From a virus, in IMG/VR virus record IMGVR_UViG_3300025910_000017, positions 1 to 41,229 of that record: 41,229 nucleotides of DNA. One strand, 5' to 3'. Within the stretch, counting starts at the first letter, position 1. Every line of letters starts with the position of its first letter. Under the pieces are notes generated by a model. The model made no database searches. It was not told where the DNA came from and saw only the letters and a program-made list of their open reading frames with translations. Below are positions 1 through 37,572 of the stretch, piece after piece. The translations under genes were made by a program, and so were the position numbers.

Positions 1-509
1 GAAAGATTAAGGCGGTCTTGGTTGATACTAAAGAAGCAGCTTCTCAGGGAATGCGAGATACTTGGGCTGCAATTGAAGCTGAGGTTAAGACATGGCCAGG
101 AAGATTATATGATTGGGGTAGAAACTTAATGCATAGCTTTGCAGATGGAATCAAAAGTGCTATTGGTGCAATTGCCGATGCATTTAGATCAGGAATGGAA
201 GCAGCCAAAAAGTTGGTGCAAGGTCATTCACCACCTGTTGCTGGGCCATTTAAAGACATTGATAAGTGGGGTTTCAATATTGGAAGCTCTTGGGTTCAAG
301 GATTTTATGATGCTTTTGGAGGATTGGGAATACCAAATATGCTTAGTGGTGGTGTAGGTAGTCCAGCTTTTGCAGGAGTGGGGGCTGGTGGAAGCAGTAG
401 CAGTGTTCAGCAAGATGTTAATATATATGTTGATAAGGTTGGAGATATGGGCGATGTTCAATCAATTGGCCGTGAGCTTGGCTTTAGAATAGGACTATTA
501 CCAAAATGA
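1..509 (+). CDS. Tape measure protein, C-terminal part (5'-truncated by window edge)
   Basis: The reading frame is open from base 3 to a TGA at 507-509 (168 residues seen). The sequence is typical of a tape measure C-terminus: amphipathic helices (KTWPGRLYDWGRNL), then a conserved GHSPPVAGPFKDIDKWG stretch, a Gly/Ser-rich segment and a short beta-rich end. A tape measure protein sets tail length and is threaded inside the tail tube. The missing N-terminal part is almost certainly the gene starting at 39817 at the other end of the window, which implies a circularly permuted genome. Direct joining of the ends puts the halves out of frame (the right part ends on a whole codon, the left frame begins at base 3), so bases are missing or wrong at the join. 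The identity of the family is fairly sure. Confidence 0.85.
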   Translation, partial: KIKAVLVDTKEAASQGMRDTWAAIEAEVKTWPGRLYDWGRNLMHSFADGIKSAIGAIADAFRSGMEAAKKLVQGHSPPVAGPFKDIDKWGFNIGSSWVQGFYDAFGGLGIPNMLSGGVGSPAFAGVGAGGSSSSVQQDVNIYVDKVGDMGDVQSIGRELGFRIGLLPK

Positions 510-1351
510 AATTATTAACTATTACAGAACAGCAAGATGGAGATGCATTTACATTTTATGATAATGCTTTAGGTACAATTCTGCGTGGTTTTGAGGGATT
601 TGAATATTCCACAGTCAGAGAATCTATTGATGATGTTGCTGGACCATATGGTTCAACCTACATTACTTCAAAGTTTGGCAGACGAAGAGTAGCAATTACT
701 GGGGATTTAATTTCTGATGATGTCTTTTCTTTAAGAAGAGACTTAGTAAAAGCCTTGAGACAAACTGGAACAATGAAGTTGGTTACTTTCACAACTTATG
801 ATGACCTCAACTTACAATTTGAGGGTGAAGTAGTAAAGGTTGCTAATCCTTATACTCACAAAACTCATACCTTTTTAATTGAGATTATTGCACCTGATTG
901 GAGATTTTATTCTCAGGAAGAAACAACTGCCAATATCTTACTTAGCTTTGTCCGAGGTGGGGCAGAGATTCCAGCAACAATACCGATGGCTATCACAGAA
1001 AATATCAATACCGATGTTGATTTAACTGAGGTTGTTACAAATGAGGGTAGTGAAATGACTGATCCTATTTTTACAATTAGTGGACCAGGAACAGATATTA
1101 TTGTAAGAAATGAAACTACTGAGCAGGAGTTTACTATCAATACGACTTTGGTTACTGATGATGTGCTTGTAATTGATGTTAAAAATAGAACTGTAGTTTT
1201 AAATGGTACCGATAATTACTATCCTTTTATTGATGGGGATTTCTGGAGTTTGGTTCCTGGAGAAAATGAAATTAGATTTTTTGCTGACGGTTTTGAGATT
1301 GATGTTACTGCATTGCAAATAACTTATAGACATGCTTATGGAGGAATTTAA
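506..1351 (+). CDS. Distal tail protein (Dit-like, siphophage tail family)
   Basis: A 281-residue protein starting at an ATG that overlaps the tape measure stop (ATGA). Position right after the tape measure gene, the length, and an N-terminal half rich in beta strands with the pattern GFEGFEYSTVRESIDDVAGPYGS followed by RRVAITGDLISDD match the distal tail (Dit) family, which forms the hexameric hub at the tail tip. The segment around residues 115-140 (HTFLIEIIAPDWRFYSQEE) is also typical of the boundary between the N-terminal ring domain and the C-terminal galectin-like domain. It is translationally coupled to the tape measure gene and followed after 3 nt by the baseplate gene. No lysin domain or insertion is visible. 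Confidence 0.75.
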   Translation: MKLLTITEQQDGDAFTFYDNALGTILRGFEGFEYSTVRESIDDVAGPYGSTYITSKFGRRRVAITGDLISDDVFSLRRDLVKALRQTGTMKLVTFTTYDDLNLQFEGEVVKVANPYTHKTHTFLIEIIAPDWRFYSQEETTANILLSFVRGGAEIPATIPMAITENINTDVDLTEVVTNEGSEMTDPIFTISGPGTDIIVRNETTEQEFTINTTLVTDDVLVIDVKNRTVVLNGTDNYYPFIDGDFWSLVPGENEIRFFADGFEIDVTALQITYRHAYGGI

Positions 1352-16135: not shown

Positions 16136-16348
16136 ATGAAGATATTTACTAAAATGCATTTGTTAGACTCTCTTAAGAAAGCTGGTTTACCCTCAACTTA
16201 TAAAAGTCTCTTAAAGATGGAACGTGATGGTGTCATCTCAAGGGGAGGAGATGATGCTGAGGGTGTTGGTATGAGTGATCGTTTTTATACTGAACAGGAA
16301 ATAAAAGATATTGTAACTAAAGTCAAAATATATAAGAATGCAAAATGA
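16136..16348 (+). CDS. MerR/excisionase-like small HTH protein
   Basis: 70 residues. LLDSLKKAGLPSTYKSLLKMERDGVI followed after a loop by RFYTEQEIKDIVTKVK has the layout of a MerR-type winged HTH (helix-turn-helix, wing with Arg-Tyr, then helix). It is expressed from a consensus leaderless promoter and overlaps the glycosyltransferase gene by ATGA, so it heads the glycan operon. It may regulate that operon or other phage promoters; the target is unknown. Confidence 0.55.
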   Translation: MKIFTKMHLLDSLKKAGLPSTYKSLLKMERDGVISRGGDDAEGVGMSDRFYTEQEIKDIVTKVKIYKNAK

Positions 16349-18354
16349 CAGATTATTCAAAACTTGCCGAGAAATATATAGTTAAGCAGGAGAGATTTTA
16401 TAATAGACCTCTTAGAGCTTTAAATAAATTCTTAATTAAAGACTTCGCTGAGTCGCTTCAAAAGGTTATAGAAACAAATGCCCCAATAAGTAATGTTCAA
16501 GATACAACTTGGCTGGAATTAGATCGTAGTAAGATTGTGGTGGCTTTAATTACTGAGGATGTTGGACACTTAACTGGTGGTAGGTATTACACTTGGTTTA
16601 TCTCTTCAGCTTTATTAGAGTTGGGTTATGATGTTACGGTTTATACGAACAAGAAGCCAGTTTTTCAGGATGACTTTAGAAAATATAAACAACCTAAAAT
16701 TGAAGTGATTGCTCAAAAGGCAAAAGATTTAGAGAACATTGATATTAAAGCTGATATTTATTTAGGTTCTCCAATCTCAGGTAATATTGCAGCTGCTCGT
16801 TTAGGTAAGAAATATAATAAACCCTCGTTTGCCTTGATCTTTGATCCGTTTCCTATGATGGCTAAATATCTTGGAGACAAAACTTATGCAGGTTGGACAC
16901 CTTTGATCAAGGAATTGAGAGAAACTAACTGCAATATCATTTCACTTTGTCAGACTTCTTCTGAATATATTTATGATTGGCTTAATAAAACTAAAGAGCA
17001 AGTTTTTCCTATCTTCCCCTGTATCAATAGTAGAGAGAATCTAATTCCTGAGGTTTTACCAGAACGTGAAGACTATGTAGTTTTCATTTCACGATTGGTT
17101 AATCACAAGAACTTTGATCATGTAGTTAAAGCCTGTAAGAACTTAGGAGTTAAATTAAAGGTTATCTCTAGTGTAGATGGTATTCAGGCTAAGGAAATAG
17201 TAAGCCGATTGGATATGAAAAAGCATGTTGAATTTCATATGGAGTGTACTGATAAAGAGAAGTTTGAAATTATATTAAAGAGTCAGGCTGTAGTTAATGC
17301 TTCAATGTTTGAGGGATTTGGTATGTATTTGGCTGAGGCTATTGCATGTGGTACTCCTTGTGTCTGTTATGAATATCCAACTTTTAAAGAAATTCAAGAA
17401 TTTGCTAAAGCCGATAATATTTATATGGCAAAGTGGAATGACCCTCATAGTTTACAGCTTAGCCTTGAGTTAGCTTTAAAGGAAAAGAAGTTTAGAAAAA
17501 CTGTGGATAAGTTTGATTTTGAGAAAATGGTAGATAGAGTAAGAGAGGTTTTTGTTTTAGAGCCAAAGATTGGAGTAATAACAATTGCTTTAAATGAGGA
17601 ACAATATATTGAGGCTTCTCTTAGATCGGTTATAAGGCATCCTAATGTTAAAAAGGTAGCAGTTGTTGAGGGAGCGGTGAATCTTTTTGCTCATGCTGCT
17701 ACTGAGGATGGATTGAGCTTGGATGATACGGCAGATAAAGTCTTTGGAGTTCAGCGTAGAGAGAATGGAGACAAGATTATTTATGAGCGTTATGGTTGGG
17801 CGTTAGATAAATCTGAACTTAGAAACCGAGCTTTAATGCTTTTAGGTAGAGATATTACTCATGTTTTAGTTGTTGATGGTGATGAAGTTTGGAAGCAGGA
17901 AGACTTAGATAACTTAGTACAGGCTATGCGTGAAAATCCTAAGACAGGTGTTTTCTTGTTTAATCTCTATCATTTCTGGAAGCAAAAGGATTTGATAGCT
18001 GTGGGTGGACAATGGGACTCTACACTTTTTAGGTGTTTTAAATACCACAATAAAGCCTTGCATTGGAAATTACATCAGCTACCAGTGGTGGATTCTGAGG
18101 GGAGATTTATAAATGTTACCGATGGCTCAATTAAATTAGATAATGTTCATGTCTACCACTTTGGTTATATGAAGAGTGAGAAAAATGTACAGGACAAACT
18201 TGAGTTTTATCGCAAGAGAGATGGTGGAATATTAACTGTTAAGGATACTTGGACAAATTGGAGAGTGGGTCAAGAGACACAGCCTACTCATGGGGGTGGC
18301 ACAGCAGTTAAATTTAATGGTGAGTTGCCAGAGGAAGTGAGGAATATTGTATGA
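16345..18354 (+). CDS. Bifunctional glycosyltransferase, GT4 fused to GT2
   Basis: 669 residues. Residues about 60-405 are a GT-B fold family 4 enzyme: VGHLTGGRYYTWFISSALL near the N-terminus, YVVFISRLVNHKNFD (244-258) and the E-x7-E nucleotide-sugar motif in FEGFGMYLAEAIACGTP (Glu323 and Glu331). Residues about 408-650 form a GT-A family 2-like enzyme: IGVITIALNEEQYIE and the metal-binding VVDGDEVW (Asp511-Asp513). It probably adds two sugars in sequence to a surface glycan, nucleotide or virion component. It overlaps its neighbours at both ends, so it works within a four-gene cassette. Sugar and acceptor cannot be told. Confidence 0.8.
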   Translation: MTDYSKLAEKYIVKQERFYNRPLRALNKFLIKDFAESLQKVIETNAPISNVQDTTWLELDRSKIVVALITEDVGHLTGGRYYTWFISSALLELGYDVTVYTNKKPVFQDDFRKYKQPKIEVIAQKAKDLENIDIKADIYLGSPISGNIAAARLGKKYNKPSFALIFDPFPMMAKYLGDKTYAGWTPLIKELRETNCNIISLCQTSSEYIYDWLNKTKEQVFPIFPCINSRENLIPEVLPEREDYVVFISRLVNHKNFDHVVKACKNLGVKLKVISSVDGIQAKEIVSRLDMKKHVEFHMECTDKEKFEIILKSQAVVNASMFEGFGMYLAEAIACGTPCVCYEYPTFKEIQEFAKADNIYMAKWNDPHSLQLSLELALKEKKFRKTVDKFDFEKMVDRVREVFVLEPKIGVITIALNEEQYIEASLRSVIRHPNVKKVAVVEGAVNLFAHAATEDGLSLDDTADKVFGVQRRENGDKIIYERYGWALDKSELRNRALMLLGRDITHVLVVDGDEVWKQEDLDNLVQAMRENPKTGVFLFNLYHFWKQKDLIAVGGQWDSTLFRCFKYHNKALHWKLHQLPVVDSEGRFINVTDGSIKLDNVHVYHFGYMKSEKNVQDKLEFYRKRDGGILTVKDTWTNWRVGQETQPTHGGGTAVKFNGELPEEVRNIV

Positions 18355-21784: not shown

Positions 21785-22233
21785 TGGAAGAAAATAACAA
21801 TCAGCCTCAAACTCTTCCAGTAATACAGGAAGAAAACAAGAAGACAGCAACTAATAATCCTACTGGTATTGGTGGGTTTAAAGATCACCCAGAGTTAATA
21901 AATAAGAATGGTAGACCCCCAAAGGGTTGGGCATGGTCTGAACTCTTAGAGGATATTGGGGATGAGGTTGAGCCAAAATCAGGTAAGCAATTTAAAGAGC
22001 TTGTTGGTAGAAGACTTTGGCTTGAATGTGTTAATGGGAATATCATGGCAGTAAAAGAATTGTTTAATAGAATGGAGGGATTACCAAGACTTAAATTAGA
22101 GGTTGATGGAAAGATTGATATGAAGATACCTCAATTAGTTGAAGCCCTAGATAAAATCATAGCGGCTAAAGAATCAGATGCAAATGATAATGTCACACCA
22201 GGAGAAGTTACAGGAGATCAAAAGGACAGTTAG
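21784..22233 (+). CDS. Terminase small subunit-like protein
   Basis: 149 residues from ATG 21784 (TAATG overlap with the methyltransferase stop; AAAGGAG 9 nt upstream). GGFKDHPELINKNGRPPKGWAW is the recurring N-terminal motif of small DNA-binding proteins just ahead of large terminase genes (a DUF5681-like stretch), followed by a helical segment (FKELVGRRLWLECVNGNIMAV) and an acidic tail. It probably recognises phage DNA for packaging. It overlaps the large terminase by about 56 nt. Confidence 0.6.
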   Translation: MEENNNQPQTLPVIQEENKKTATNNPTGIGGFKDHPELINKNGRPPKGWAWSELLEDIGDEVEPKSGKQFKELVGRRLWLECVNGNIMAVKELFNRMEGLPRLKLEVDGKIDMKIPQLVEALDKIIAAKESDANDNVTPGEVTGDQKDS

Positions 22234-23488
22234 AACTATCTTCAAAAATTCTAAGGGATTACCTTATGAGTTAACAGATGGTCAAGCTGAGATATTTCTT
22301 TCGGTTATTGATCCTCAATGGAAATGGCTATGGATTTCAGCCCCTACTCGTTATGGGAAAACTGATATTCTTGCTATGGCTATTCTTTATTTGGCTTCAT
22401 ATAAAAAGTTAAAGATTCCTATCGTTGGAGGTAGTGAGGATAAAGCTAAGAAGATAATGGAGTATGTTGTCGCTCACTTGGCAGATGATTCTAGTTTATA
22501 CCGAGGGCTTATAAATATTGAGGATGCACATGATGTTGATAAATTAAAGGTTACTGTTAGTAAGGATGCTTTGAGATGGAAAGATGGTGGTTGGATTTAT
22601 ATAACTTCAGTTGATTCAAGAGGTGTTAAGTCTGAGGGAGAGAAAGTTGTCGGTGAGGGAGGAGATGTTGTTTTACTTGAAGAGGCTGGACTTATTAGAA
22701 AGAAAGAACAATTTTCAAAGATTGTGCGTATGCCTGAGGAGGATAGAGGTTGGGGAAAACTTATCATGTCAGGTAACTGTGTAGAGAACTCTGTATTTGA
22801 TGATGCTTTCAAGGACCCACTTTATCACAAAGTTAGAGTTGATCTTGAACAGGCAATTGAGGAGAAAAGATTTACTAGGGAGTACTTGGAGGAAAAGAAA
22901 ACTCAGACTACAGCTAAGGATTGGAAGCGTTATTACTTAGTTGAGTTTCCTCTTGCAAATGAGTTTAGTATATTCAAACCAAAGAAGTATGACATATTAC
23001 CTAATGACCTTAAGTATTATGGTGCTGTTGATTTAGCATTGGGAGAGGCGAAGAAAGGGAGCTTGGTTGGTATTGTTAATCTGGGTATTGATGGTAAAGG
23101 TCAGGTTTATGAGGTTGATAGCTTAGGTGTACAGATTCAACCCGATGAGACTATGCGTACAATTTTTAACTTCCCTTATAAGTATCAGCGTTTTGGTGTT
23201 GAGAAAGTACAGTTTCAGGCTTACTTCTTAAAGGTAATTGAGGAGCGAAGTAAAGCGGAGGGTAAATATATTCCATTTCAGGGTGTTACTCAGACTAAAA
23301 AGAAAGAAGAGCGTATTGAAAGTATGGAACCATTTATAAATACTGGTCAGATTTTATTTAAAGGAGATAATGAATTGTGGCAAGAAATGCAGGACTATCC
23401 AAATAGTGAGAATCTTGATGTGCTTGATGCTTTAGAGATGGCTTGGAGAACAATGGGAATAGGCAATTTTGAATTTACAGTGATATAA
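22178..23488 (+). CDS. terL: Terminase large subunit
   Basis: 436 residues. The ATPase part has Walker A SAPTRYGKTD (residues 54-63) and Walker B GDVVLLEEAG (162-171) with the catalytic Glu pair. The RNase H-like nuclease part begins near 280 with YGAVDLALGEAKKGS (Asp285) and ends with LDVLDALEMAW, which carries the C-terminal Asp residues. It packages DNA into proheads. In-frame ATGs at 22178, 22184 and 22190 are all possible starts; none has a good ribosome site and translation is probably coupled to the small subunit. Confidence 0.9.
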   Translation: MQMIMSHQEKLQEIKRTVRTIFKNSKGLPYELTDGQAEIFLSVIDPQWKWLWISAPTRYGKTDILAMAILYLASYKKLKIPIVGGSEDKAKKIMEYVVAHLADDSSLYRGLINIEDAHDVDKLKVTVSKDALRWKDGGWIYITSVDSRGVKSEGEKVVGEGGDVVLLEEAGLIRKKEQFSKIVRMPEEDRGWGKLIMSGNCVENSVFDDAFKDPLYHKVRVDLEQAIEEKRFTREYLEEKKTQTTAKDWKRYYLVEFPLANEFSIFKPKKYDILPNDLKYYGAVDLALGEAKKGSLVGIVNLGIDGKGQVYEVDSLGVQIQPDETMRTIFNFPYKYQRFGVEKVQFQAYFLKVIEERSKAEGKYIPFQGVTQTKKKEERIESMEPFINTGQILFKGDNELWQEMQDYPNSENLDVLDALEMAWRTMGIGNFEFTVI

Positions 23489-23496: not shown

Positions 23497-24705
23497 ATGA
23501 ACATCTTGCAAAGAGTCGGAAAAACAATAGGTAAATTCTTCTTAGGCACGAGTATTCCTGGGTCGTGGAGTTGGTCGCTTCCAGGTCAATGGAATAAGAA
23601 AGGAATGCTAGAACAATATACTAGATATGTTTATGCAGTTGTTTCTGCAATAGCTTCTGAAGCAGCAAAAATTGATTTGGAGATGTACAAAAACGATAAG
23701 GTGGTTGAAAACCATCCTTTCCTTACTCTTATTAAGAAGCCAAATCCAGACACTTCACAGTTCCAATTCTTAGAGATGCACTTCACATTCATGTTATTAG
23801 CAGGAGAGAGCTATTGGTATCTTGCTCGTGGAGTTAATAGCTTAAAGACTAAAGAGCTTTATTTACTTAGACCAGATTTAATGCAAGTTGTTGTTGATAA
23901 GACTGATCCTAGAGGAATGGTTGCAGGTTATGTTATGAGTAAACCTGATGGAACAAAAGAGACCTTTGATAAAAAAGAGATTCTTCATTTTAAGATGCCT
24001 AATCCCCTTGATCCTTATTATGGTTTGGGTACTATTCAGGCTGCTAAGACTTATATTCAAACCGAGGAATATGCTTCTACTTGGACAAAGAACTCTATAT
24101 TTAATTCAGGTAGACCAAGCGGAATCCTTAATATTAAAGGTACGATTGATAAGGACGAGTTTGAACAATTAAAGAAACAGTTTAAAGAAACATACTCAGG
24201 AACCGAGAATGCTGGTAAGACTTTAATGCTTAAAGGTGCTGATGGAATTGATTATACAAAGATGGGTATGGAGTTGGGTGAGGTTGCACTTAAAGAGTTA
24301 AAGGACATGACTCGTGACGACATCATGGTAATGTTTAGAGTAAGCAAAACTATTCTTGGAATAACTGATGATGTTAATAGAGCAAGTGCAATGGAGGCTA
24401 GAGCAGTCTTTACTCGTAATGTTGTTACCCCAGCTGTAGATAGAATGCTTGATCATATAAATGCTTTCTTGATTCCAGATTGGGGAGATGGATTCTTATT
24501 AACTTATGAAGATCCAACAATGCAAACTGATGCAGACAGGTTGGCTGAGTGGACAGCAGGACATAATAAGTGGCTTACTACAAATGATATTCGTGCTGAG
24601 CGTGAGCTTGATCCTATTCCAGGTGGAGATGTTATCAGAGAACCAATTACACTTGTACCTACTTCAGGTGGTAAAGCTGTTAAAAGGCTAAAAAAAAAAG
24701 TTTAA
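23497..24705 (+). CDS. Portal protein (HK97 family)
   Basis: 402 residues. YVYAVVSAIASEAAKIDLEMY, HPFLTLIKKPNPDTSQFQF, LAGESYWYLAR, ILHFKMPNP.DPYYGLG and a conserved VSKTILGITDDVNRASA (residues about 283-300) are standard HK97-type portal landmarks. The portal forms the dodecameric gate for DNA. The gene has its own leaderless promoter. Its last codons are CTA AAA AAA AAA GTT TAA inside an A10 tract (24690-24699): a -1 slip there would read through into the MuF frame, giving a portal-MuF fusion (see the site below). Confidence 0.9.
   Translation: MNILQRVGKTIGKFFLGTSIPGSWSWSLPGQWNKKGMLEQYTRYVYAVVSAIASEAAKIDLEMYKNDKVVENHPFLTLIKKPNPDTSQFQFLEMHFTFMLLAGESYWYLARGVNSLKTKELYLLRPDLMQVVVDKTDPRGMVAGYVMSKPDGTKETFDKKEILHFKMPNPLDPYYGLGTIQAAKTYIQTEEYASTWTKNSIFNSGRPSGILNIKGTIDKDEFEQLKKQFKETYSGTENAGKTLMLKGADGIDYTKMGMELGEVALKELKDMTRDDIMVMFRVSKTILGITDDVNRASAMEARAVFTRNVVTPAVDRMLDHINAFLIPDWGDGFLLTYEDPTMQTDADRLAEWTAGHNKWLTTNDIRAERELDPIPGGDVIREPITLVPTSGGKAVKRLKKKV
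24690..24699 (+). promoter_or_regulatory. A10 slippery tract, candidate -1 frameshift portal-to-MuF
   Basis: Ten consecutive A; in the portal frame they read A-AAA-AAA-AAA, an ideal slippery heptamer. The -1 frame is open from 24684 to the MuF stop at 25466 with no stop codon. Residues encoded between 24699 and the MuF ATG (SLNTTRELQKVIYIESLF) look like genuine MuF N-terminal helix, not random translation. Either frameshifting or polymerase slippage could fuse the two genes, or the homopolymer is miscounted. Confidence 0.55.
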
Positions 24706-27083: not shown

Positions 27084-30000
27084 ATGGCTACACTATATGC
27101 AAAGGCAGCAGGAGGTAACTGGTCAGCAGCAGGAACTTGGTCAACAACAGGTTCAGGTGGTGGCGATTCTTCTGGTCCACCAACAGCAGCAGATGATGTA
27201 GTCTTTCAAGTTGGCTCAGGAGCTGTAACAGTTGATGCAGGGGCAGTTTGTCGTAGCATTGATACTAATGCCTACACTAATACTCTAACCCATTCCTCAG
27301 GAGTAACTCTTACTATTGGTGATGGTACGGCAGGAGCAGGTAATATAGCTTTTAGATTTGGGTCTGGAATGACCTACACTAAAGGAAGTACCACGACTTC
27401 TGCAATTGCTTTTGTTTCAACTTCAGCTACGCAGCAAACAATAACTACTAATGGAAAGATTTTAGGAAATGTTACTTTTAATGGATCGGGAAGTTCTTAC
27501 TTATTCTCTGATAACTTTAGTGCCAATGGTTCCACTTCAACCACTCTTACTCTTACTACTGGAACTTTAAATATGAATGGTAAGACTGTTGCTTTGGGAC
27601 GATTGTCTTCTACTGGAACAGGAACAAGAACTCTTACCTTGGGAGCAGCGACCATAACAACTAATTCTGTATGGGACTTTACTGATCCGACAAACTTAAC
27701 TTTTAATGCAAATACTTCATCAATAACTCAATCAGGAGGTAACTTCTTTGGAGGAGGTAAAACTTTTAATACTGTTGCTTTTACTCTTTCAACGTCAATT
27801 ATTATTACAGGAGCAAATACTTACGCTACGCTTACAATAACAGGTGTGGGACAAGTTAGAGTTAGGGCTAATCAAGTGGTATCAGGAACCTTAACTATTA
27901 CAGGAAACGATGCAGCTGTAAGTAGAATCTGGGTTTTGACTGGACAATTTTATGACTCTACTAATTTTGCGACACAATACACAATTACAGCAGCTGCTAA
28001 GTCATTAACAAATGTAGACTTTACTTCAATAATTGCAGCAGGAGCAGCCTCACCATTTACTGGTACGAGCTTAGGTAATGGAGGTAACTGTTCCAATATT
28101 ACTTTCACAACACCTGTTACTAGATATTGGGTGGGTAATGGAGGTAACTGGTCAAGTACTACTCATTGGTCAACATCAACTGGTGGAGGTTCTGGAGCAA
28201 GTGTTCCACTTTTACATGACACAGTTGTTTTTGATGGAAGCTCAATAAGCTCTGGAAGTCAAACAATCACAATGGATGTTCCTAGAGTTCCAAGTCTGGA
28301 TTTTACAAACATTACAAATACTCCAACACTTAGTGATAGTGGTACCAATAGAGAGATATTTGGATCATTAAAGTTGATTACAGGTATGAATGTAAGTCTT
28401 ACTGGATGGTTTAACTTTATATCTTTTACCCCAATTACTTTGACTAGTGCAGGTAAAACAATTACAGAAATAGATGTCTATACACCATCTACAACTTTAA
28501 CTTTGCAAGATAATTTACTTGCTGAATATCTTTATCTTGAGTTTGGGACCTTTGATGCTAATGGTAATAATGTAACCCTTAAAAGAGATTTTTATGGAGA
28601 TGGTTATGATGGTATCTCTTCTCTTAAAATGGGATCAGGTATCTGGGTAATAGGTGGTTATGGAAATACTTGTACTTGGATTACAACAGGAACAGGAATT
28701 ATAAATGCTCAGACTTCAACTATAAGGGTTCAAAATAGTAATGTCAGTGTATATTTTTATGATTTCTCAAATAGTACTTATTACAATCTTGAAATTTTAC
28801 CTGCACACAATGGTGGTTATATGGAGATTGATAATTCGGGAACTACTACTTTCAATAGTATAACCTTTGGAGCAAGTGCATATGTCTTTATTTATGGGAA
28901 TACATCAATAGTTGCAACTACTTATGTATGTAGTGGATCTTCTGGAAATCATGTTAGGTTGGAGGGGTCTTCTATTGCGGGGATTAGCTTCTCAAAATCT
29001 AGTGGTACTGTAACTTTTGATTATGTGATTATGAAGTATATCCAGGCAACTGGTGGAGCGATATTTAATGCAGGTGAAAATAGTGGAGATGGTGGAGGGA
29101 ATACTGGATGGAACTTTGCAAGTTCAACAGCAACAACAACTAAGAGGCAGTTATTGGTTGCTGGTTCTTCAGCAGCAACAAGTAGCTCAGGATTATCAAA
29201 TACATTAAATGGTGGTCAAGAGGGAGGATCAGCTGGCTGGATTAACTCTCTTACTGGTAGAACTTTTATTGTTCCTGTAGAGGGAATATTAAAGCAGACA
29301 AAGTTATTTTTAGGTGCTGCTCCAAGTGGAGGTACATTTAATTGGAGGGTACAGGTTTATGATAAGGATGGTAACTTTGTTTGGTCTCAATCTACTGGAG
29401 CAAGCAGTGATCAGTTCCCAGTTCTTAGTTTAAATATTCCTGTATCTCCTGGTTATAGATGCAGAATCCAATACATAATTGGTGGAAGCCCTACAGCTGT
29501 AACTGCGACTTGGGTAACTGAGTTCTTGATGTATTCAAAGAGATTCGTTTTGGGGGATGGATCATTTACTTTATGGGGTAATGACAATACAAGGCGTTAT
29601 CACTCCCCTGCTTCAGGAGGTTGGTTTGAGGGTGTAACAACAGCACAACATATTCCTGTTCCTATTGCTTGTACATTAAGAGAGTTGTTTGTGAACTTAA
29701 GTACTTCTCCAGGAGCTGGAAAGTCTTACATATTAAGTATTTATAAAAATGGTTCTGAAGAGGCTTCTACTATATTAACTGTAAGTGATAGTGCTTTTTA
29801 TGGAAGTCTTACTGGTTTGAATGTGGCTTTTGCTGCTGGAGATACAGTAATGATGTCATTCATTTCTTCTGGAACACCAGCCAGTAATCCATCGGGAGAT
29901 TGGTCGCTTTCTTTTGAGCCTACTGGTACTGATGGGGAATCTTTTGTTGGAACTGTAGCAACGAGTAACTTGAATACTGGTGCAACAGCTTATGCTCCTA

Positions 30001-31121
30001 TTGCTTCTAATGGACACACTTGGAGTACGACTGAGGCTGATCGTAAAAGATATATAGCTGTTAGAGCAGTAACTCTTAAGAATATGAGAATCTTGCTTGA
30101 TGGTTCTCCTGGAGCTGGTAAGAGTTATGCCTTTACTGTTAGAAAGAATGGAGCGGGAACTGCCATAACAGCAACAATTGCCGATGCTGCAACTTCTGCA
30201 AATGATACTACTCACACAGTTGATATAGCTGAGGGTGATTACATTGATATTGAATGTGTACCTAGTGGAACTCCTACTGCAAGAAAGGCGGAGATTGGGT
30301 TGGCTATGGTTACAAGTAGCCCTGTGGAGCCTATTACAAAGTCATTAAAGTATACGGTTTTGAAGTCTTTAACAATAACAAAGACCCTTATTTACAAGGT
30401 TAAGGCTCCTGTTACTATTACGAAGTCTCTTAAATATACAACTAAGAGTGCTCATGCAGCTATTACTAAAAGTCTTAAATATACTGTTAAAACAACTCCA
30501 TCAACTATAACAAAGAGTTTAAAGTATACAGTTGTTAAAAGTATTACGATTCAGAAGACTCTTATTTATAAGGTTAGAGCTTTCCCAACAATAACAAAGT
30601 CGCTTAAATATACGACTAAAGCTCCAGTTACTATTACAAAGTCTTTGAAGTATACAATTCTCAAGGCTCTAACTATTACAAAGAGTTTGACTTATGCAAT
30701 CCGAAAGGATGTTTATAGCCGAGAAGTTGATGATACTTTGCAGGCCAATGACCTTAACTTAGATGTAATTTACACAGAAGCAGAAAGAACTGATGTTGCC
30801 ACAGATGACGGAACTTATGTTGATATTCAAGGGACAACTGATCAATATGCTTTACATCAATTTAAAGAGATAAATGCAAATGATACTGATGCTTTAGTGA
30901 TTCATTGGAATGGTAAGACAACTGTTGCAGGTTCACTCTCAACAATCTATTTGCAAATTTATAATCGCAATACTACAACTTGGGAAACTCTTGATTCAAA
31001 TAATAGTGTGGCTGTTCTTACTGACTTTGATTTGGATGCAATGGTTACTTCAAACTTATCTGATTATTATGATGCTGACAATTTAATTTCAGTTAGGGTT
31101 TATCAGTTACAAGTAACATAA
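27084..31121 (+). CDS. Giant modular appendage protein with NWS modules and ITKSLKY repeats
   Basis: 1345 residues, low in Cys, with several module types. NWS modules: GGNWSAAGTWSTTGSGG near residue 12 and GGNWSSTTHWSTSTGGG near 352, each followed by a long beta-solenoid-like stretch; the second ends with GGGNTGWNFASS. Beta-sandwich modules at about 690-1080 contain two copies of SPGAGKSY (near 875 and 1010) in similar frames (xxxKNG). Residues 1084-1208 hold nine copies of the ITKSLKYTV repeat, and a 136-residue unique domain ends the protein. This looks like a long fibre or adhesin extended by a repeat stalk. It lies just after a terminator. Confidence 0.7.
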   Translation: MATLYAKAAGGNWSAAGTWSTTGSGGGDSSGPPTAADDVVFQVGSGAVTVDAGAVCRSIDTNAYTNTLTHSSGVTLTIGDGTAGAGNIAFRFGSGMTYTKGSTTTSAIAFVSTSATQQTITTNGKILGNVTFNGSGSSYLFSDNFSANGSTSTTLTLTTGTLNMNGKTVALGRLSSTGTGTRTLTLGAATITTNSVWDFTDPTNLTFNANTSSITQSGGNFFGGGKTFNTVAFTLSTSIIITGANTYATLTITGVGQVRVRANQVVSGTLTITGNDAAVSRIWVLTGQFYDSTNFATQYTITAAAKSLTNVDFTSIIAAGAASPFTGTSLGNGGNCSNITFTTPVTRYWVGNGGNWSSTTHWSTSTGGGSGASVPLLHDTVVFDGSSISSGSQTITMDVPRVPSLDFTNITNTPTLSDSGTNREIFGSLKLITGMNVSLTGWFNFISFTPITLTSAGKTITEIDVYTPSTTLTLQDNLLAEYLYLEFGTFDANGNNVTLKRDFYGDGYDGISSLKMGSGIWVIGGYGNTCTWITTGTGIINAQTSTIRVQNSNVSVYFYDFSNSTYYNLEILPAHNGGYMEIDNSGTTTFNSITFGASAYVFIYGNTSIVATTYVCSGSSGNHVRLEGSSIAGISFSKSSGTVTFDYVIMKYIQATGGAIFNAGENSGDGGGNTGWNFASSTATTTKRQLLVAGSSAATSSSGLSNTLNGGQEGGSAGWINSLTGRTFIVPVEGILKQTKLFLGAAPSGGTFNWRVQVYDKDGNFVWSQSTGASSDQFPVLSLNIPVSPGYRCRIQYIIGGSPTAVTATWVTEFLMYSKRFVLGDGSFTLWGNDNTRRYHSPASGGWFEGVTTAQHIPVPIACTLRELFVNLSTSPGAGKSYILSIYKNGSEEASTILTVSDSAFYGSLTGLNVAFAAGDTVMMSFISSGTPASNPSGDWSLSFEPTGTDGESFVGTVATSNLNTGATAYAPIASNGHTWSTTEADRKRYIAVRAVTLKNMRILLDGSPGAGKSYAFTVRKNGAGTAITATIADAATSANDTTHTVDIAEGDYIDIECVPSGTPTARKAEIGLAMVTSSPVEPITKSLKYTVLKSLTITKTLIYKVKAPVTITKSLKYTTKSAHAAITKSLKYTVKTTPSTITKSLKYTVVKSITIQKTLIYKVRAFPTITKSLKYTTKAPVTITKSLKYTILKALTITKSLTYAIRKDVYSREVDDTLQANDLNLDVIYTEAERTDVATDDGTYVDIQGTTDQYALHQFKEINANDTDALVIHWNGKTTVAGSLSTIYLQIYNRNTTTWETLDSNNSVAVLTDFDLDAMVTSNLSDYYDADNLISVRVYQLQVT
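30333..30710 (+). repeat. ITKSLKYTV tandem repeat array 1, nine units
   Basis: Nine consecutive 14-15-residue units with consensus ITKSLKYTVxxxxxT (variants ITKTLIYKV, IQKTLIYKV). Alternating polar and apolar residues predict short beta strands joined by 5-residue linkers often containing Pro. Codons for the same residues differ widely between units (for example ATTACAAAGTCATTA versus ATAACAAAGAGTTTA), so the array is conserved as protein but diverged as DNA. Confidence 0.85.
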
Positions 31122-31125
31122 AAAA

Positions 31126-33822
31126 ATGGCAAGACTATGGACATCAGGATTTGAATTTAATACACTCACGGCCGACCTTGAGTTTACTTCCACGTCTGGT
31201 ACACCAGTAATTCAAACAGGCACAATAAGAAGTGGAACTTATGCTGGGCAAATTACCAGCTTAGGTTCTGGAACCCCCAAGTATTTTGCTTACCAGTATT
31301 TAGCTGCTGAAGCAACAAGTCATAGATATTTTAGAGCTTATTTTAGAGCAGCAACCTTACCATCGGCAGAAAACAGAATCATGGTATGGAATGACGGAGC
31401 AGCTGTTTCTACTCCAAGCGTTTATGTTTCTATTGATAACTCTGGTGTATTAAAAATTTATGATGAGGATGGTCAAATTACAGGAACAGCTACTTTATCA
31501 ACTGGAATTTGGTACAGAATTGAAGTAAAGATAGATACTACCCCAGCGGGAGGTTCACAAGTTGTTGAATTAAAAGTTGATGGTGCTGTTATTGCAACTT
31601 CTTCAACAAGAAATATAGCAGCTACAAATCAAGGCTTTCATTGGTTGTTGGGAGGTAATTTAAATTCAGAGGCACAAACAACTGGTAATTGGTTCTTTGA
31701 TGACTTAGCTATAAATGATAGTACTGGTTCGTTTCAAACTTCTTATCCAGGAGAGGGAGAGGTACTTGTTTTAAGACCTAGTACAGCAGGAGATAATACA
31801 GCTTGGTCAAGTGATGTAACAAGTGTAGATGAAGTAACTCCTGATGATGCAACTACTATTGTTACAAGTAATACTTCTGGTCAAATTGATGATTACAACA
31901 TTGATGATACCCCAGCAGCAATGGGTTCTACAGATACAATAAATGTTGTTCAGGTGGGTGTGAGATGGGCAACTTCTTCTTTAACAGGTGGTGAACCAGA
32001 CTTTGTATTGCGTATTAAAGCTAGTGCTTCTGGAACAGTTGAGGAAAGTGCAGCGTTAAATGGATCGGGATCAACATCATATCTTACAAACTCTTTAAAT
32101 TTACCAAGAGACTATCCACTAACTTTATATGATTTGCCAGGAGCTTCTAGTACAGCTTGGACAAAAGCTGATCTTGATACAACTCAAATAGGTATGCGTG
32201 AGACAGTTTCAGATACTCATTTTATTAACGTTACAGCTGTTTGGTTAGTTGTAGACCATAAACCAACTCCTACTGCAACGACAATTACTAAAGACCTTAA
32301 ATATACAGTTATTAAGGCTGTTACTGTTACTAAAAGTTTAAAGTACACAGTTAAGACCTCTGTTTCTGCCATCACAAAGTCGTTGAAATATGCTGTTAAG
32401 ACTACGCCTGCAACAATAACTAAAAGTTTAAAGTATACAGTTAAAGCTCCTGTAACAATCCAGAAGTCTTTGAAGTACACAACCTTAACTTCTCATGCTG
32501 CTATTACTAAATCACTTAAGTATTCGGTTGTTACTACACCTGCAACTATTACTAAGAGCCTTACTTATGAGATTCAGGCGGGAATAATTTTAAGTACAGA
32601 TGAATTTAGTTTGGAGTTCGTACCTATTACTACTGAGACAATAACCAAATCTCTTAAATATGCGGTTGTCAAAGCTATCTCAATAACAAAAAGTCTTAAG
32701 TACACAGTATTTAAAGCTCTCTTAATAACTAAAAGTCTTACTTATGATGTCATCAAAGCATTAAGCATTACTAAATCTTTGAAGTATGCGGTTGTTAAAG
32801 CAACAACAATAACTAAATCTCTTAAATATACAGTCTTAGCAGCTCAGGCAATAACAAAAAGTCTTAAGTATACGGTTGTTACAACTGGCTCGGCTATTAC
32901 TAAGAGTTTAAGGTATGCAATTGGACGATCACCTACGATTACTAAAAGTCTTAAATATACAGTTTTAGCTCCTACGTCAATAACTAAGAGTTTAAAATAT
33001 ACGATCTTAAAGGCATTAACTCTTACTAAGAGTCTTAAATATACAGTTAAAGCACCAGTTACTATTACCAAATCTTTAAGATATGAGGTTGTTATTACAC
33101 CAGCATCAATAACTAAGAGTCTCAAGTATTCGGTTGTGAAAGCTATAACTACGACAAAGAGTTTGCATTATGCAGTTGTAACAAGTCCAACAATCCAACT
33201 TCAGTTAGAGTATCAGATTTTGGGGTATCAAACCTTTACAGTTCAAAAGTCTTTGAGATATGCAGTGGTTGTTCCTCACTCAATTACCAAGAGTTTACGC
33301 TATGCAGTTGTTCCGTCAATTGCTATTACTAAAAGTTTGCGATATGAGGTGGTAGCTCCACAGACAATCACAAAGAGTTTGAAATATGCGGTGGTAGTTA
33401 CTCCAGCTACGATTACCAAGAGCTTGCATTATGAGGTTGTGGTAGCTAGTGCGATTACCAAATCTCTTAAGTACACAGTAGTTGCACCTCAAAATGCAAT
33501 TACAAAGAGCTTAAGGTATGAGGTTGTTTCTGCTAATGCTATTACCAAATCCTTACAATACTTGGTAACAACGCAGGGATTGATTACTAAATCCTTACAT
33601 TATGAAGTGGTTGCACCTTTTGCAATTACTAAATCACTTACTTATAGAGTGATTATCAACGCAGAAGCCATTACCAAATTATTAACTTATGCTGTTAAAA
33701 TAAAAGTTAGAGGTATATTTGTCTCACTTAGAAAGCTGGGTCCAACATTCTCAATTAGAAAACTTGATCCAGGGATAACGATTACAAAGAAAGGCAAATC
33801 AATTACTATTGATAAAATATAA
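31126..33822 (+). CDS. Giant repeat appendage protein, LamG-like head plus 32-unit repeat stalk
   Basis: 898 residues. Residues 1-200 (WTSGFEFNTLTADLEFTS, YRIEVKIDTTPAGGSQVVEL, WFFDDLAIND) look like a concanavalin/LamG jelly-roll, a common carbohydrate-binding fold. Residues 205-385 are a second beta domain. Residues 387-862 hold about 32 units of the ITKSLKYTV repeat, interrupted once by a degenerate segment (residues about 483-505) and once by a weak unit (IQLQLEYQI). A 35-residue basic tail closes the protein. It shares its repeats with the preceding gene, and the two probably assemble together. The role as a fibre or decoration is inferred. Confidence 0.7.
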   Translation: MARLWTSGFEFNTLTADLEFTSTSGTPVIQTGTIRSGTYAGQITSLGSGTPKYFAYQYLAAEATSHRYFRAYFRAATLPSAENRIMVWNDGAAVSTPSVYVSIDNSGVLKIYDEDGQITGTATLSTGIWYRIEVKIDTTPAGGSQVVELKVDGAVIATSSTRNIAATNQGFHWLLGGNLNSEAQTTGNWFFDDLAINDSTGSFQTSYPGEGEVLVLRPSTAGDNTAWSSDVTSVDEVTPDDATTIVTSNTSGQIDDYNIDDTPAAMGSTDTINVVQVGVRWATSSLTGGEPDFVLRIKASASGTVEESAALNGSGSTSYLTNSLNLPRDYPLTLYDLPGASSTAWTKADLDTTQIGMRETVSDTHFINVTAVWLVVDHKPTPTATTITKDLKYTVIKAVTVTKSLKYTVKTSVSAITKSLKYAVKTTPATITKSLKYTVKAPVTIQKSLKYTTLTSHAAITKSLKYSVVTTPATITKSLTYEIQAGIILSTDEFSLEFVPITTETITKSLKYAVVKAISITKSLKYTVFKALLITKSLTYDVIKALSITKSLKYAVVKATTITKSLKYTVLAAQAITKSLKYTVVTTGSAITKSLRYAIGRSPTITKSLKYTVLAPTSITKSLKYTILKALTLTKSLKYTVKAPVTITKSLRYEVVITPASITKSLKYSVVKAITTTKSLHYAVVTSPTIQLQLEYQILGYQTFTVQKSLRYAVVVPHSITKSLRYAVVPSIAITKSLRYEVVAPQTITKSLKYAVVVTPATITKSLHYEVVVASAITKSLKYTVVAPQNAITKSLRYEVVSANAITKSLQYLVTTQGLITKSLHYEVVAPFAITKSLTYRVIINAEAITKLLTYAVKIKVRGIFVSLRKLGPTFSIRKLDPGITITKKGKSITIDKI
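32284..33713 (+). repeat. ITKSLKYTV tandem repeat array 2, about 32 units
   Basis: About 32 units of 14-15 residues, core ITKSL(K/R/H/T)Y(T/A/E/S)V, filling more than half of the protein. The Lys-Ser-Leu core is almost invariant, while linkers vary (KAPVT, TTPAT, APQNA). Synonymous codons are strongly scrambled between units. The sixth residue drifts from Lys in early units to Arg or His in late units, suggesting gradual amplification. Confidence 0.85.
33810..33818 (+). promoter_or_regulatory. Extended -10 promoter, leaderless
   Basis: TGA-TAAAAT at 33810-33818, 6 nt before the ATG at 33825, inside the end of the repeat gene. Confidence 0.55.
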
Positions 33823-33824
33823 AT

Positions 33825-34406
33825 ATGGATATGACTTGGGAGCAACATCAAGAGTGGGAAGCTAATTGGCATAAGCATAATAATAATTGTGCCAACTCTT
33901 ATAATGAGGAAACTAAGCAGTATAAGTATGCCAGTAAAATGGGCTTGGATGAATTTATAACTAACTGGTTTGGTGCTCATGGTTGGGACTTCAAAGATAA
34001 AACTGTATTGGATGTTGGGGGTGGACCATACTCAATCCTATTAAAGAGTAAGGCTAAGCGAATGGTTGTGCTTGATCCTTGTGAATATCCTAATTGGACT
34101 CAGGTCAGATATAAGGAATGCGGAGTGGAAGTTATTAAAGAGAAAGCTGAGGAAATGAAGTTTAGCGAACCATTTGATATTGTGCTTTGTTATAATGTGC
34201 TCCAGCATGTTGTTGATCCAGAAGAGATTTGTAAGAGAATGCGGGCTGTTGGTAAGGTGATTTACTTTTTTGATTGGGTAGGAGTAGGTGGAACACCTGG
34301 ACATCCTCATATTTTAGAAGCAGATAAATTGGATCAATGGCTTGGAGGAAAAGGAACAGTTGAGGGAGCAGCTTATTTTGGTAAGTTTCAAGGTGAAGTT
34401 ATATGA
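33825..34406 (+). CDS. Class I SAM methyltransferase
   Basis: 193 residues. VLDVGGGPYSILLKSKAKRMVVLDP is motif I and II, FDIVLCYNVLQHVVDPEEICKRM motif IV, followed by VIYFFDWVG. This is a Methyltransf_11-like enzyme with an N-terminal His/Asn-rich helical extension (WEQHQEWEANWHKHNNNCANSYNEE). It follows the giant fibre genes and could methylate a glycan or the fibres, as methyltransferases and glycosyltransferases do in the earlier cassette. The substrate is unknown. Confidence 0.75.
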   Translation: MDMTWEQHQEWEANWHKHNNNCANSYNEETKQYKYASKMGLDEFITNWFGAHGWDFKDKTVLDVGGGPYSILLKSKAKRMVVLDPCEYPNWTQVRYKECGVEVIKEKAEEMKFSEPFDIVLCYNVLQHVVDPEEICKRMRAVGKVIYFFDWVGVGGTPGHPHILEADKLDQWLGGKGTVEGAAYFGKFQGEVI

Positions 34407-34856: not shown

Positions 34857-36812
34857 ATGGACGAACTCATAAAGATATTGGCTAAGAAAGTAGATGAACG
34901 CTCTAGTGTAGAGCTTGAATATATTAAACTTCATAAAAAGGAATTAACCACAACTCAACTTCAGCAATTGGAGGATGAAAAATCATCAGTTGTTGTATTA
35001 GAGGGTGCTAATAAAGAGGAATTTCAATCTAATATTGAAAGCAAAGACTTGGGAGATGGTGAAATTGAAACAGTTGTTGCTTCAGATTCTTTAGATCGTC
35101 ATGGTGAGAAGATTAGTATTGATGGAATGGATACTCGTAAGTATATGAAGAACCCAGTAGTTCAATGGGCACATGATTATGATTTGCCCCCTATTGGTAA
35201 AGCAACAAAGGTTTGGAAAGATGGCGGGAAGTTAATGGCAAGGATGAAGTTTGCTATTACTGAGAATCCTTTTGCTAAAACTATCTATGATTTAGTTAAG
35301 GGTGGTTTTCTAAATGCCGTTTCAATTGGATTTATTCCTTTAGAGATGGATGGCAATATGTTTACTAAGAGTGAGATGGTAGAGTTCTCAGTTGTGCCTG
35401 TACCAGCCAATTCTGATGCTTTAATATCTGCCAAAAAATTGGGTATTGACACTGATATACTGAAATCCTATACTGATTCTAAGATGTACGAATTGAAAGA
35501 AATCCTAGAAAAAGAAGTTGACGCCTTAACAATGGGCGAGATAAAGTTTCTTCGTGAGAATGTTGAAAAATTAACCAAAGCACAAGCAAAGAAATTTGCA
35601 TCTGTTCTTAAAGAAGAGGAAGAGGAAGAAGTAGAAACTCCAAAAGTTCCTGAAACACCAGTTGCTCCTGTAACACCAGAAGCTCCTAAAACTGATGAGG
35701 AAGTTAAAGAAACCCTTAAAACAATCCAAGCTGATCTTGAAGTATTAAAGAATGCTGATCCTATTGCTTACAAAAACTTTGCCTTAGGTAAAGGAAAAGG
35801 AAAAGGTGAAGTATCTAAAGAAATGAAGTTCATGCTTTATGCTAGGGGCGTAAAAAGCGGTAACTTCTCTGAATATCTTTCAGTAGTTGGTAAAGATGCA
35901 ATGAATACTACAGAAGATGGTGTAGTTTTACCTCCACAAGAATTTGTTACTGAGATCACAAGACTTGAAGAATCGTTTGGAGTAGCACGAAGATTTGCTA
36001 CGGTTAGACGATCTGCTTCTGGTTCTGGTATTAAATTCCTTTTGGGTGACGATGATGTAACAATATTTGACACAGCTGAGGGTGGAGTTAAGAAATCCAC
36101 ATCTCTTAGCTATGATTCTCAGCAACTACTTTGGAGAAAATTTGCAGCTATTCTTCCTATAACTGATGAACTTTCAGAAGATTCAGCTATTGATCTTTGG
36201 GCAGATGCAACAAATAGGTTCGCAAGAGCTTATGCAAGACAAGAAGATAACTTAGTATTTAATGAAACCTCTGGTTCTTCTCCTAAGAACAAAGGTATCA
36301 CTCAAGTATCTGGAACAAATGTAGTTGAGATTGCAAACCTTGCAGATCTTAGCTTTGAAGATTTGGTAGACATGATTTATGGAGTACCATCAGCATCAGG
36401 TGATAATGGTAGATTCTTCTTGAATAGAACAATGCTTGGTGAGGTTATGAAGATGAAAGATCAAAATGATAGACCACTTTGGTTACCAGGAGTAGCAAGT
36501 GGAGCACCTGCAACAATCTTAAACAGACCTTATGAATTAACTGAAGTATTAAACTCAGTTGATGATGCAGACGCAGGAGAAGCAATAGCAGTTTACGGAG
36601 ATTTGAAATTCGTAACACTTGGAGAAAGAAATTCACTTAGCGTTAAAATCTTTGATACAGGATTAGTTGGAGATCCAGATGACGAAGATCAATCAGATCA
36701 AATCAACCTTATGACTCAAGATGCACAGGCAATGAGAGTTGTAAAGAGAATGAATGCAATCGTAAGATTCCCAGCAGCTTTCTCAGTACTTAAGTTAGCA
36801 TCAGGAAGTTAA
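34857..36812 (+). CDS. Prohead protease fused to HK97-fold major capsid protein
   Basis: 651 residues. Residues about 66-192 are an HK97-type (S78) prohead protease: His106 in VVQWAHDYD, Ser156 in LNAVSIGFIP and Glu176 in MVEFSVVPVPAN are the likely catalytic residues. Residues about 200-310 form an acidic/Pro helical linker (EEEEEEVETPKVPETPVAP) that would be a scaffolding delta domain. Residues about 325-651 are the capsid fold, with FVTEITRLEESFGVARRFATV, DLSFEDLVDMIYGVP and VKRMNAIVRFPAAFSVLKLA. The chain presumably cleaves itself between the parts during maturation. Protease-capsid fusions are known but uncommon. It has its own leaderless promoter. Confidence 0.85.
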   Translation: MDELIKILAKKVDERSSVELEYIKLHKKELTTTQLQQLEDEKSSVVVLEGANKEEFQSNIESKDLGDGEIETVVASDSLDRHGEKISIDGMDTRKYMKNPVVQWAHDYDLPPIGKATKVWKDGGKLMARMKFAITENPFAKTIYDLVKGGFLNAVSIGFIPLEMDGNMFTKSEMVEFSVVPVPANSDALISAKKLGIDTDILKSYTDSKMYELKEILEKEVDALTMGEIKFLRENVEKLTKAQAKKFASVLKEEEEEEVETPKVPETPVAPVTPEAPKTDEEVKETLKTIQADLEVLKNADPIAYKNFALGKGKGKGEVSKEMKFMLYARGVKSGNFSEYLSVVGKDAMNTTEDGVVLPPQEFVTEITRLEESFGVARRFATVRRSASGSGIKFLLGDDDVTIFDTAEGGVKKSTSLSYDSQQLLWRKFAAILPITDELSEDSAIDLWADATNRFARAYARQEDNLVFNETSGSSPKNKGITQVSGTNVVEIANLADLSFEDLVDMIYGVPSASGDNGRFFLNRTMLGEVMKMKDQNDRPLWLPGVASGAPATILNRPYELTEVLNSVDDADAGEAIAVYGDLKFVTLGERNSLSVKIFDTGLVGDPDDEDQSDQINLMTQDAQAMRVVKRMNAIVRFPAAFSVLKLASGS

Positions 36813-36957: not shown

Positions 36958-37572
36958 ATGTATACAGATCAAGCTCGTGTAGAAGCGTACCTCAAAAGAG
37001 AACTCACGGATGATGAAGTTACAATCCTTGATGAGATAATACTTCATAACTCTTCTTACATTAACGGTTATACTAATCGTGAATGGCTATCTGTTGATAC
37101 TGAATTGGACGATGAGTTGGAAGATTTGGAACCATCAATAAGAGTATTTGATGGTAAGGGAACTCGTGAACTATTTATAGATGACTTTACTTTAATTGAA
37201 TCAGTCAGCGTTTTAGATAGTCAGGGTGATGAACTTATTAAATATGAAGATGCAGAAACCGATTGGTTACTCTACCCTCTTAATAAGAATCCTAAGCAGT
37301 CAATTCACTTACGCAATGCTCGTTTCCCTATTGGTGCTGGCAATGTGGAAGTTAATGCTGTCTGGGGGGCTGGTATAGTCCCTGCTGATGTTGTAATGGT
37401 GTGTACTGGACTGGTGGGTAGGTATCTTCAAAAGGCTGGAACTTCTACTGGAATGTTCAAGAGTGAATCTATTGAGGGTTATTCTTACCAGCTTTTAACT
37501 AGCGGTGAGATTGATGCAGATACATCATCCCTTATTAAAAACCTAGACAAATGGAAAAAGTTTATTTTATAA
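36958..37572 (+). CDS. Head-tail connector protein (adaptor, gp6-like)
   Basis: 204 residues. Begins MYTDQARVEAYLKRELTDDE with a helical N-terminus (ILDEIILHNSSYINGYTNREW) and a beta middle (GTRELFIDDFTLIESVSVL), the arrangement of the HK97 gp6-like adaptor that binds beneath the portal. Position as first gene after the capsid supports this. It is longer than typical gp6 (about 100-110 residues), so it carries an extra domain. It is led by a leaderless promoter. Confidence 0.65.
   Translation: MYTDQARVEAYLKRELTDDEVTILDEIILHNSSYINGYTNREWLSVDTELDDELEDLEPSIRVFDGKGTRELFIDDFTLIESVSVLDSQGDELIKYEDAETDWLLYPLNKNPKQSIHLRNARFPIGAGNVEVNAVWGAGIVPADVVMVCTGLVGRYLQKAGTSTGMFKSESIEGYSYQLLTSGEIDADTSSLIKNLDKWKKFIL

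Follow-up and report, generated by a model that had tools for sequence, protein, structure and literature searches.

Triple β-spiral shafts, homotrimers found in adenovirus and reovirus, are built from about 15 residues per repeat. In each such repeat, a tight Gly/Pro turn connects two antiparallel strands (PMC7565637). The head-fibre shaft of Orsay virus delta, termed a β-bracelet, is a pentamer in which each repeat contributes one 5-residue strand and a 3-residue loop, with a Val/Leu-based consensus and a hydrophobic inner face (PMC7565637), and the triple-stranded β-helix of T4 gp5 follows a VxGxxxxx repeat (PMC4576200). Viral fibrous β folds are few, and each is informative on protein stability and assembly. 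With regard to accessory appendages, the neck passage structure proteins of the 936 lactococcal phages are encoded separately from the receptor-binding protein of the tail tip, are located where head and tail of the virion join and carry variable, C-terminal carbohydrate-binding modules on a trimeric coiled-coil stalk (PMC6669499). Repeat stalks under exchangeable phage adhesin heads are already known; the 14–15-residue repeat described here is, apparently, not.

The repeat was found in an IMG/VR virus record (IMGVR_UViG_3300025910_000017; 41,229 bases, hereafter the window) with the gene content of a tailed phage (Table 1). Counting the units in proteins A and B returned exactly the numbers that had been proposed from the sequence at the outset, i.e. 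nine in the first and about 32 in the second, and the basic tail claimed for B is likewise present. Units are spaced 14 or 15 residues apart throughout, save for a 17-residue insertion and a degenerate unit 21 in B (IQLQLEYQILGYQTFT). The original prediction of a ~476-residue array in B matches its length, with the insertion included in that figure, while the single span initially given for the repeats (30333–33713) holds both arrays along with the non-repeat A C-terminal domain and B head (30717–32283).

Table 1 Features of the window around the array genes and in the packaging, head and tail modules.
Feature	Position	Strand	Description or evidence
Distal tail protein Dit	506..1351	+	phrog_33, E 5e-25
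Terminase	22178-23488		context
Portal protein	23497..24705	+	phrog_2662, E 3e-68; phrog_12, E 2e-65
Protein A	27084..31121	+	1345 aa; appendage protein; holds an array of 9 units
A array	30333..30716	+	9 units; aa 1084 to about 1211-1212; first core at 30333
A C-terminal domain	30717..31118	+	about 133 aa
Protein B	31126..33822	+	898 aa; head, 32-unit array, basic tail
B head	31126..32277	+	aa 1-384; phrog_14065 family; ConA-like jelly roll (predicted) and second β domain
B array	32284..33711	+	32 units; aa 387-862
Insertion between B units 7 and 8	32590..32640	+	17 residues
Basic C-terminal tail of B	33712..33819	+	36 aa; 8 K/R vs 2 D/E
HK97-type major capsid protein fused to prohead protease	34857..36812	+	PF05065, E 2.5e-36; PF04586, E 1.7e-7
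Head-tail adaptor	36958..37572	+	phrog_442, E 4e-12
Tape measure	39817 to window end		context

Both the motif density and the self-identity of the B array lie far above those of shuffled sequences, which excludes chance as its origin. Its 32 motif copies compare with a shuffle mean of 0.05 and a maximum of 2 (2000 shuffles), and its self-identity reaches 0.37 at lag 14 and 0.21 at lag 15 (expected, 0.10; largest shuffle, 0.15). A six-frame count over the whole window yielded 42 motif matches, of which 41 are the units and one is stray.

Searching IMG/VR with a three-unit DNA pattern that required K..L..Y retrieved 71 stretches, and a second DNA pattern at least 119. Upon scoring with a hidden Markov model (HMM) of the unit, arrays were present in at least 72 open reading frames (ORFs) at at least 69 viral loci besides the window, bearing out the expectation that other phages would carry them; the patterns being strict, this is an undercount. 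The 72 ORFs contain 3–72 units each (median 22; 1769 in total), with a spacing of 14 (n = 923) or 15 residues (n = 606). Among about 85,000 species of bacterial and archaeal genomes, the same pattern hit 43 stretches, only one of which holds a real array (L115; 8 units), in a protein that also bears a head related to that of B, and host genes were consequently dismissed as the source of the repeat; two further candidates, L107 and L081, were weak and short and were left out of the count. None of 50,697 phage records contained a convincing array; a match in a 735-kb phage was dropped, as it proved to be a YxEYIAE-type repeat with 24% identity. Judged from these sequence searches, the repeat family is essentially viral and known mostly from metagenomes.

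Three unit positions are nearly constant. Within a loosely matched set of 42 units, K3 was kept in 40, and L5 and Y7 in all 42; conservation figures for K, L and Y are partly ascertained by the K..L..Y search pattern, for which a slot count partly corrects, as ~90% of the expected 14- or 15-residue slots in array ORFs hold a recognized unit. At the DNA level, the window units are far less alike. In 54% of comparisons, one and the same residue is spelled by different codons; Ser4 is encoded by AGY and TCN and Leu5 by CTN and TTR alike, and third codon positions differ twice as often as the first and second. Neighboring units share 56% DNA identity, as compared to 54% for all pairs, and no pair exceeds 79%. 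Recent duplication of DNA therefore does not explain the units, and selection at the protein level keeps them alike. As to the variable positions, lysine or arginine is practically never found at positions 2 and 4 flanking the constant lysine (0.00 among some 1600 units from 67 array ORFs), and position 2 of these units is often acidic (D/E, 0.23).

The B head and array were modeled separately, because arrays were pulled onto the head when full-length proteins were aligned. The AlphaFold2 (AF2) model of residues 1–384 reached a pLDDT of about 70–95 over most of its length. Foldseek against the PDB returned glucuronan lyase (2zzj; E 2.6e-9) as the best match, with others to Cip1 (3zyp), PL7 alginate lyases and sialidase lectin domains; among viral structures the best match had an E-value of 7e-20, and the arrangement is common to many phage proteins. 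The model hence supports a concanavalin A (ConA)-like jelly-roll fold, so that the lectin-like head originally proposed holds at the level of the fold, and presumably the head binds glycans. On the sequence side, Pfam gave no significant domain match on the B head, and a single PHROGs family matched B, mostly across the head (phrog_14065; E 2e-56). Laminin_G_3 heads were detected by Pfam on other array proteins (L073, L072, L032 and L048). The phrog_14065 proteins of the isolated Streptomyces phages Hiyaa (gp13) and Galactica (gp11) share the ~380-residue head of B at 32–36% identity and are encoded in a similar position, between the capsid and adaptor genes, but their heads are followed by yet another kind of repeat.

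In about eleven other contigs, a B-type head precedes STS, SPS or GQASETDLAQ repeats, or almost nothing (L199 and L205). Conversely, comparing array proteins L033 and L050, the heads are 36% and the arrays 88% identical, the tails agree at 24 of 24 positions and the lengths differ by three units, a pattern to be expected if the head faces the host and the stalk is bound to the virion. Heads and stalks are exchanged independently of one another. A PY...PY tail terminates 22 of the 72 array ORFs, L033, L050, L053 and L021 among them; it is short and basic, lies directly behind the array, repeats PY...SPY motifs and is perhaps a virion anchor.

Several further arrangements were observed. Long STS- or SPS-type low-complexity repeats follow the B-type head in L195, L197, L204 and L207, with L204 having two heads and such repeats in between. 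In L200 and L206, the head is followed by a ~20-residue tandem repeat (GQASETDLAQAITVLK), which from its sequence may be another undescribed stalk repeat; an assignment by eye of the L200 C-terminus as a minor head protein found no support in PHROGs or Pfam. Array proteins L011 and L040 end in a sequence that, by eye and unscored, resembles the A C-terminal domain.

In the window, the genes for A and B follow the portal gene and precede the capsid-protease fusion gene, which begins 1 kb past B. We examined the gene position in 25 array records, in 11 of which an HK97-type capsid gene was detectable. In ten of the 11, the array shares the strand of that gene and lies 2–4 kb away from it; the remaining one (G014) would agree with this only as a circular record. 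In L045, the array is located between the capsid protein and the head-tail adaptor. Arrays are not confined to the head module, as indicated by L031, where the array is found amid tail-fibre-like genes, and L012, where 8 units are fused to a protein with a tail-protein match. The window also encodes a separate tail-tip set far from the arrays, comprising Dit, a Gp37-like hub protein and a Collar-domain protein. Proximity to the capsid gene combined with this separate set favors an accessory head or neck appendage over a tail-tip fibre, an assignment we make for A and B with moderate confidence from gene order. It would resemble the neck passage structure in being an accessory appendage coded apart from the tail tip and in displaying variable carbohydrate-binding modules on a stalk. 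B differs in its predicted β-type repeat and N-terminal head, and its putative place on the virion is suggested by gene position (the portal-capsid interval).

Most likely, the array is a stalk made of strands by which a head of sugar-binding type is kept at a distance from the particle. The explanation that best accounts for the data overall, which we hold with middling confidence, is a length-adjustable stalk of a virion appendage whose strands pair between chains. A and B would be appendage proteins coded in the head module, and each unit would form a ~9-residue β strand (I-x-K-x-L-x-Y-x-V, with alternating faces) plus a 5–6-residue linker, often with proline. Several protein copies probably associate, with I, L, Y and V turned inward along with the aliphatic portion of the constant lysine, and the number of units would set the length of the stalk. 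In B, the array would keep the ConA-like head, a presumed glycan binder, at a distance from the basic tail, and this tail presumably contacts the virion close to the capsid or neck; the array of A would join two globular parts. Consistent with one strand per unit, β propensity peaks at unit positions 1, 5, 7 and 9. Proline accounts for about 27% of the residues at position 13 of the units in array ORFs and for 35% of those at position -2. A 10-unit single-chain AF2 model built from 35 aligned array segments contained ten strands, each on unit positions 1–9. The proposal of a β strand per unit is thereby reproduced, in a model of very low confidence (mean pLDDT 44, pTM 0.30).

Assembly between chains in the manner of the Orsay virus delta β-bracelet (PMC7565637) is the reading we prefer; the array would share with it a head-fibre shaft with one short strand plus loop per repeat and a hydrophobic inner face. 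The phage array differs in its longer predicted strands and linkers and its constant K, L and Y, and the 8-residue β-bracelet period is absent (spacing 14 or 15 in 1529 cases). Triple β-spirals share the approximate repeat length, the alternating hydrophobic residues and the position of the stalk below a receptor-binding head, but have two strands per repeat instead of the one predicted by our low-confidence model, and a Gly/Pro turn where the B array is poor in glycine (5 in 476 residues). Nor do array unit frequencies contain the 8-residue VxG pattern of T4 gp5. That the arrays constitute a fibrous β fold absent from solved structures (a homo-oligomeric rod with one 9-residue strand per 14–15-residue unit and a Lys-Leu-Tyr signature, with which a wide range of tailed phages would mount exchangeable heads at adjustable length on capsid or neck) is a bolder proposition that we advance tentatively. 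A new fibrous fold would make the finding much more interesting, and a rod, if confirmed, might provide a building block for designed rods. A widespread repeat of so simple a signature, in few to 72 copies and under many heads, would be a compact system in which to study the building and exchange of phage appendages.

Alternatively, the array could be a flexible or mostly disordered spacer whose strand-like spelling is incidental, any hydrophilic repeat being sufficient. AF2 confidence on the array is low (pLDDT 31–44), and the relatives of the B head that carry STS/SPS low-complexity or 20-residue GQASETDLAQ repeats, or none, imply that the head can function in the absence of an ordered rod. 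Yet K3, L5 and Y7 persist in about 90% of slots across divergent phages while synonymous codons turn over, and the B array falls on the folded side in charge-hydropathy (H 0.53 vs boundary 0.46). Low pLDDT is no proof of disorder, as an obligate oligomer modeled as one chain would look alike. We consider a flexible spacer rather unlikely; even so, the repeat would still annotate about 70 viral loci whose array proteins lack a family name.

Folding of the array on itself within one chain, as an antiparallel meander or β-solenoid, is less probable still. The one-chain model did place ten strands for ten units, and antiparallel neighbors would set K3 beside Y7 and I1 beside V9. However, its confidence was very low, and units modeled behind the B head had a pLDDT of about 31, so structure prediction did not uphold the regular β-solenoid originally envisaged; the disorder that would have spoken against it is not demonstrated by such values either. 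Charge coupling and covariation between successive units gave no sign of parallel or antiparallel pairing, in a test that was itself uninformative, and 32 lysines would come to lie on top of one another in a parallel solenoid. Inside a unit, positions 0/2 and 6/8 carry paired opposite charges, to which we attach little weight, as repeated unit subtypes could cause this.

Binding by the array itself, as a multivalent basic adhesin that targets acidic polymers of the cell surface or other virion proteins, would fit the net charge of +56 over the 476 residues of B and the many near-identical sites. This charge is not conserved, ranging from -1.06 to +2.71 per unit and being negative in 11 of 72 array ORFs, and we regard such a role as improbable.

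The claim that the repeat belongs to no recognized family withstood comparison with databases: NCBIfam had no match for A or B, a PDB sequence search returned nothing credible for the array, and a literature search found no printed instance of the motif. The exception was Pfam YTV (PF07639), a family of cysteine-rich planctomycete wall proteins (PMC8567305), which scored B at 28.4 bits against a cut-off of 21 and likewise exceeded the cut-off on isolated arrays. The phage arrays contain the YTV tripeptide at a similar period, and this accounts for the match. Artificial YTV in unrelated filler reached 40–43 bits at periods 14 and 16, above the phage arrays, and YTVCKPV peptides scored 85–86 bits, about double YTV alone, indicating that the model favors a cysteine-containing motif. 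Membership in the planctomycete family is scarcely credible, since filler outscores the arrays, the A and B arrays contain no cysteine and YTV matches 2 of 35 array segments, fewer than PulA_N1. Matches of PulA_N1, DUF4906 and TIP49_C on arrays were judged artefacts of the same kind.

Some array ORFs show additional internal order. Short LLQENGDKIL-type modules occur before or inside the arrays of 16 ORFs, including those of L006, L148, L056 and L067, and L004, L005 and L030 have higher-order repeats of several units, one of which contains IFLGS. Between B and the capsid gene, the window encodes a 193-aa ORF (33825–34406) of a family without functional annotation (phrog_3603), with a methyltransferase-like motif by eye; a gene annotated as methyltransferase is also found near the head protein of Hiyaavirus. 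Finally, a 669-aa protein with glycosyltransferase matches (16345–18354; phrog_2170, E 4e-12) is encoded upstream of the packaging genes.
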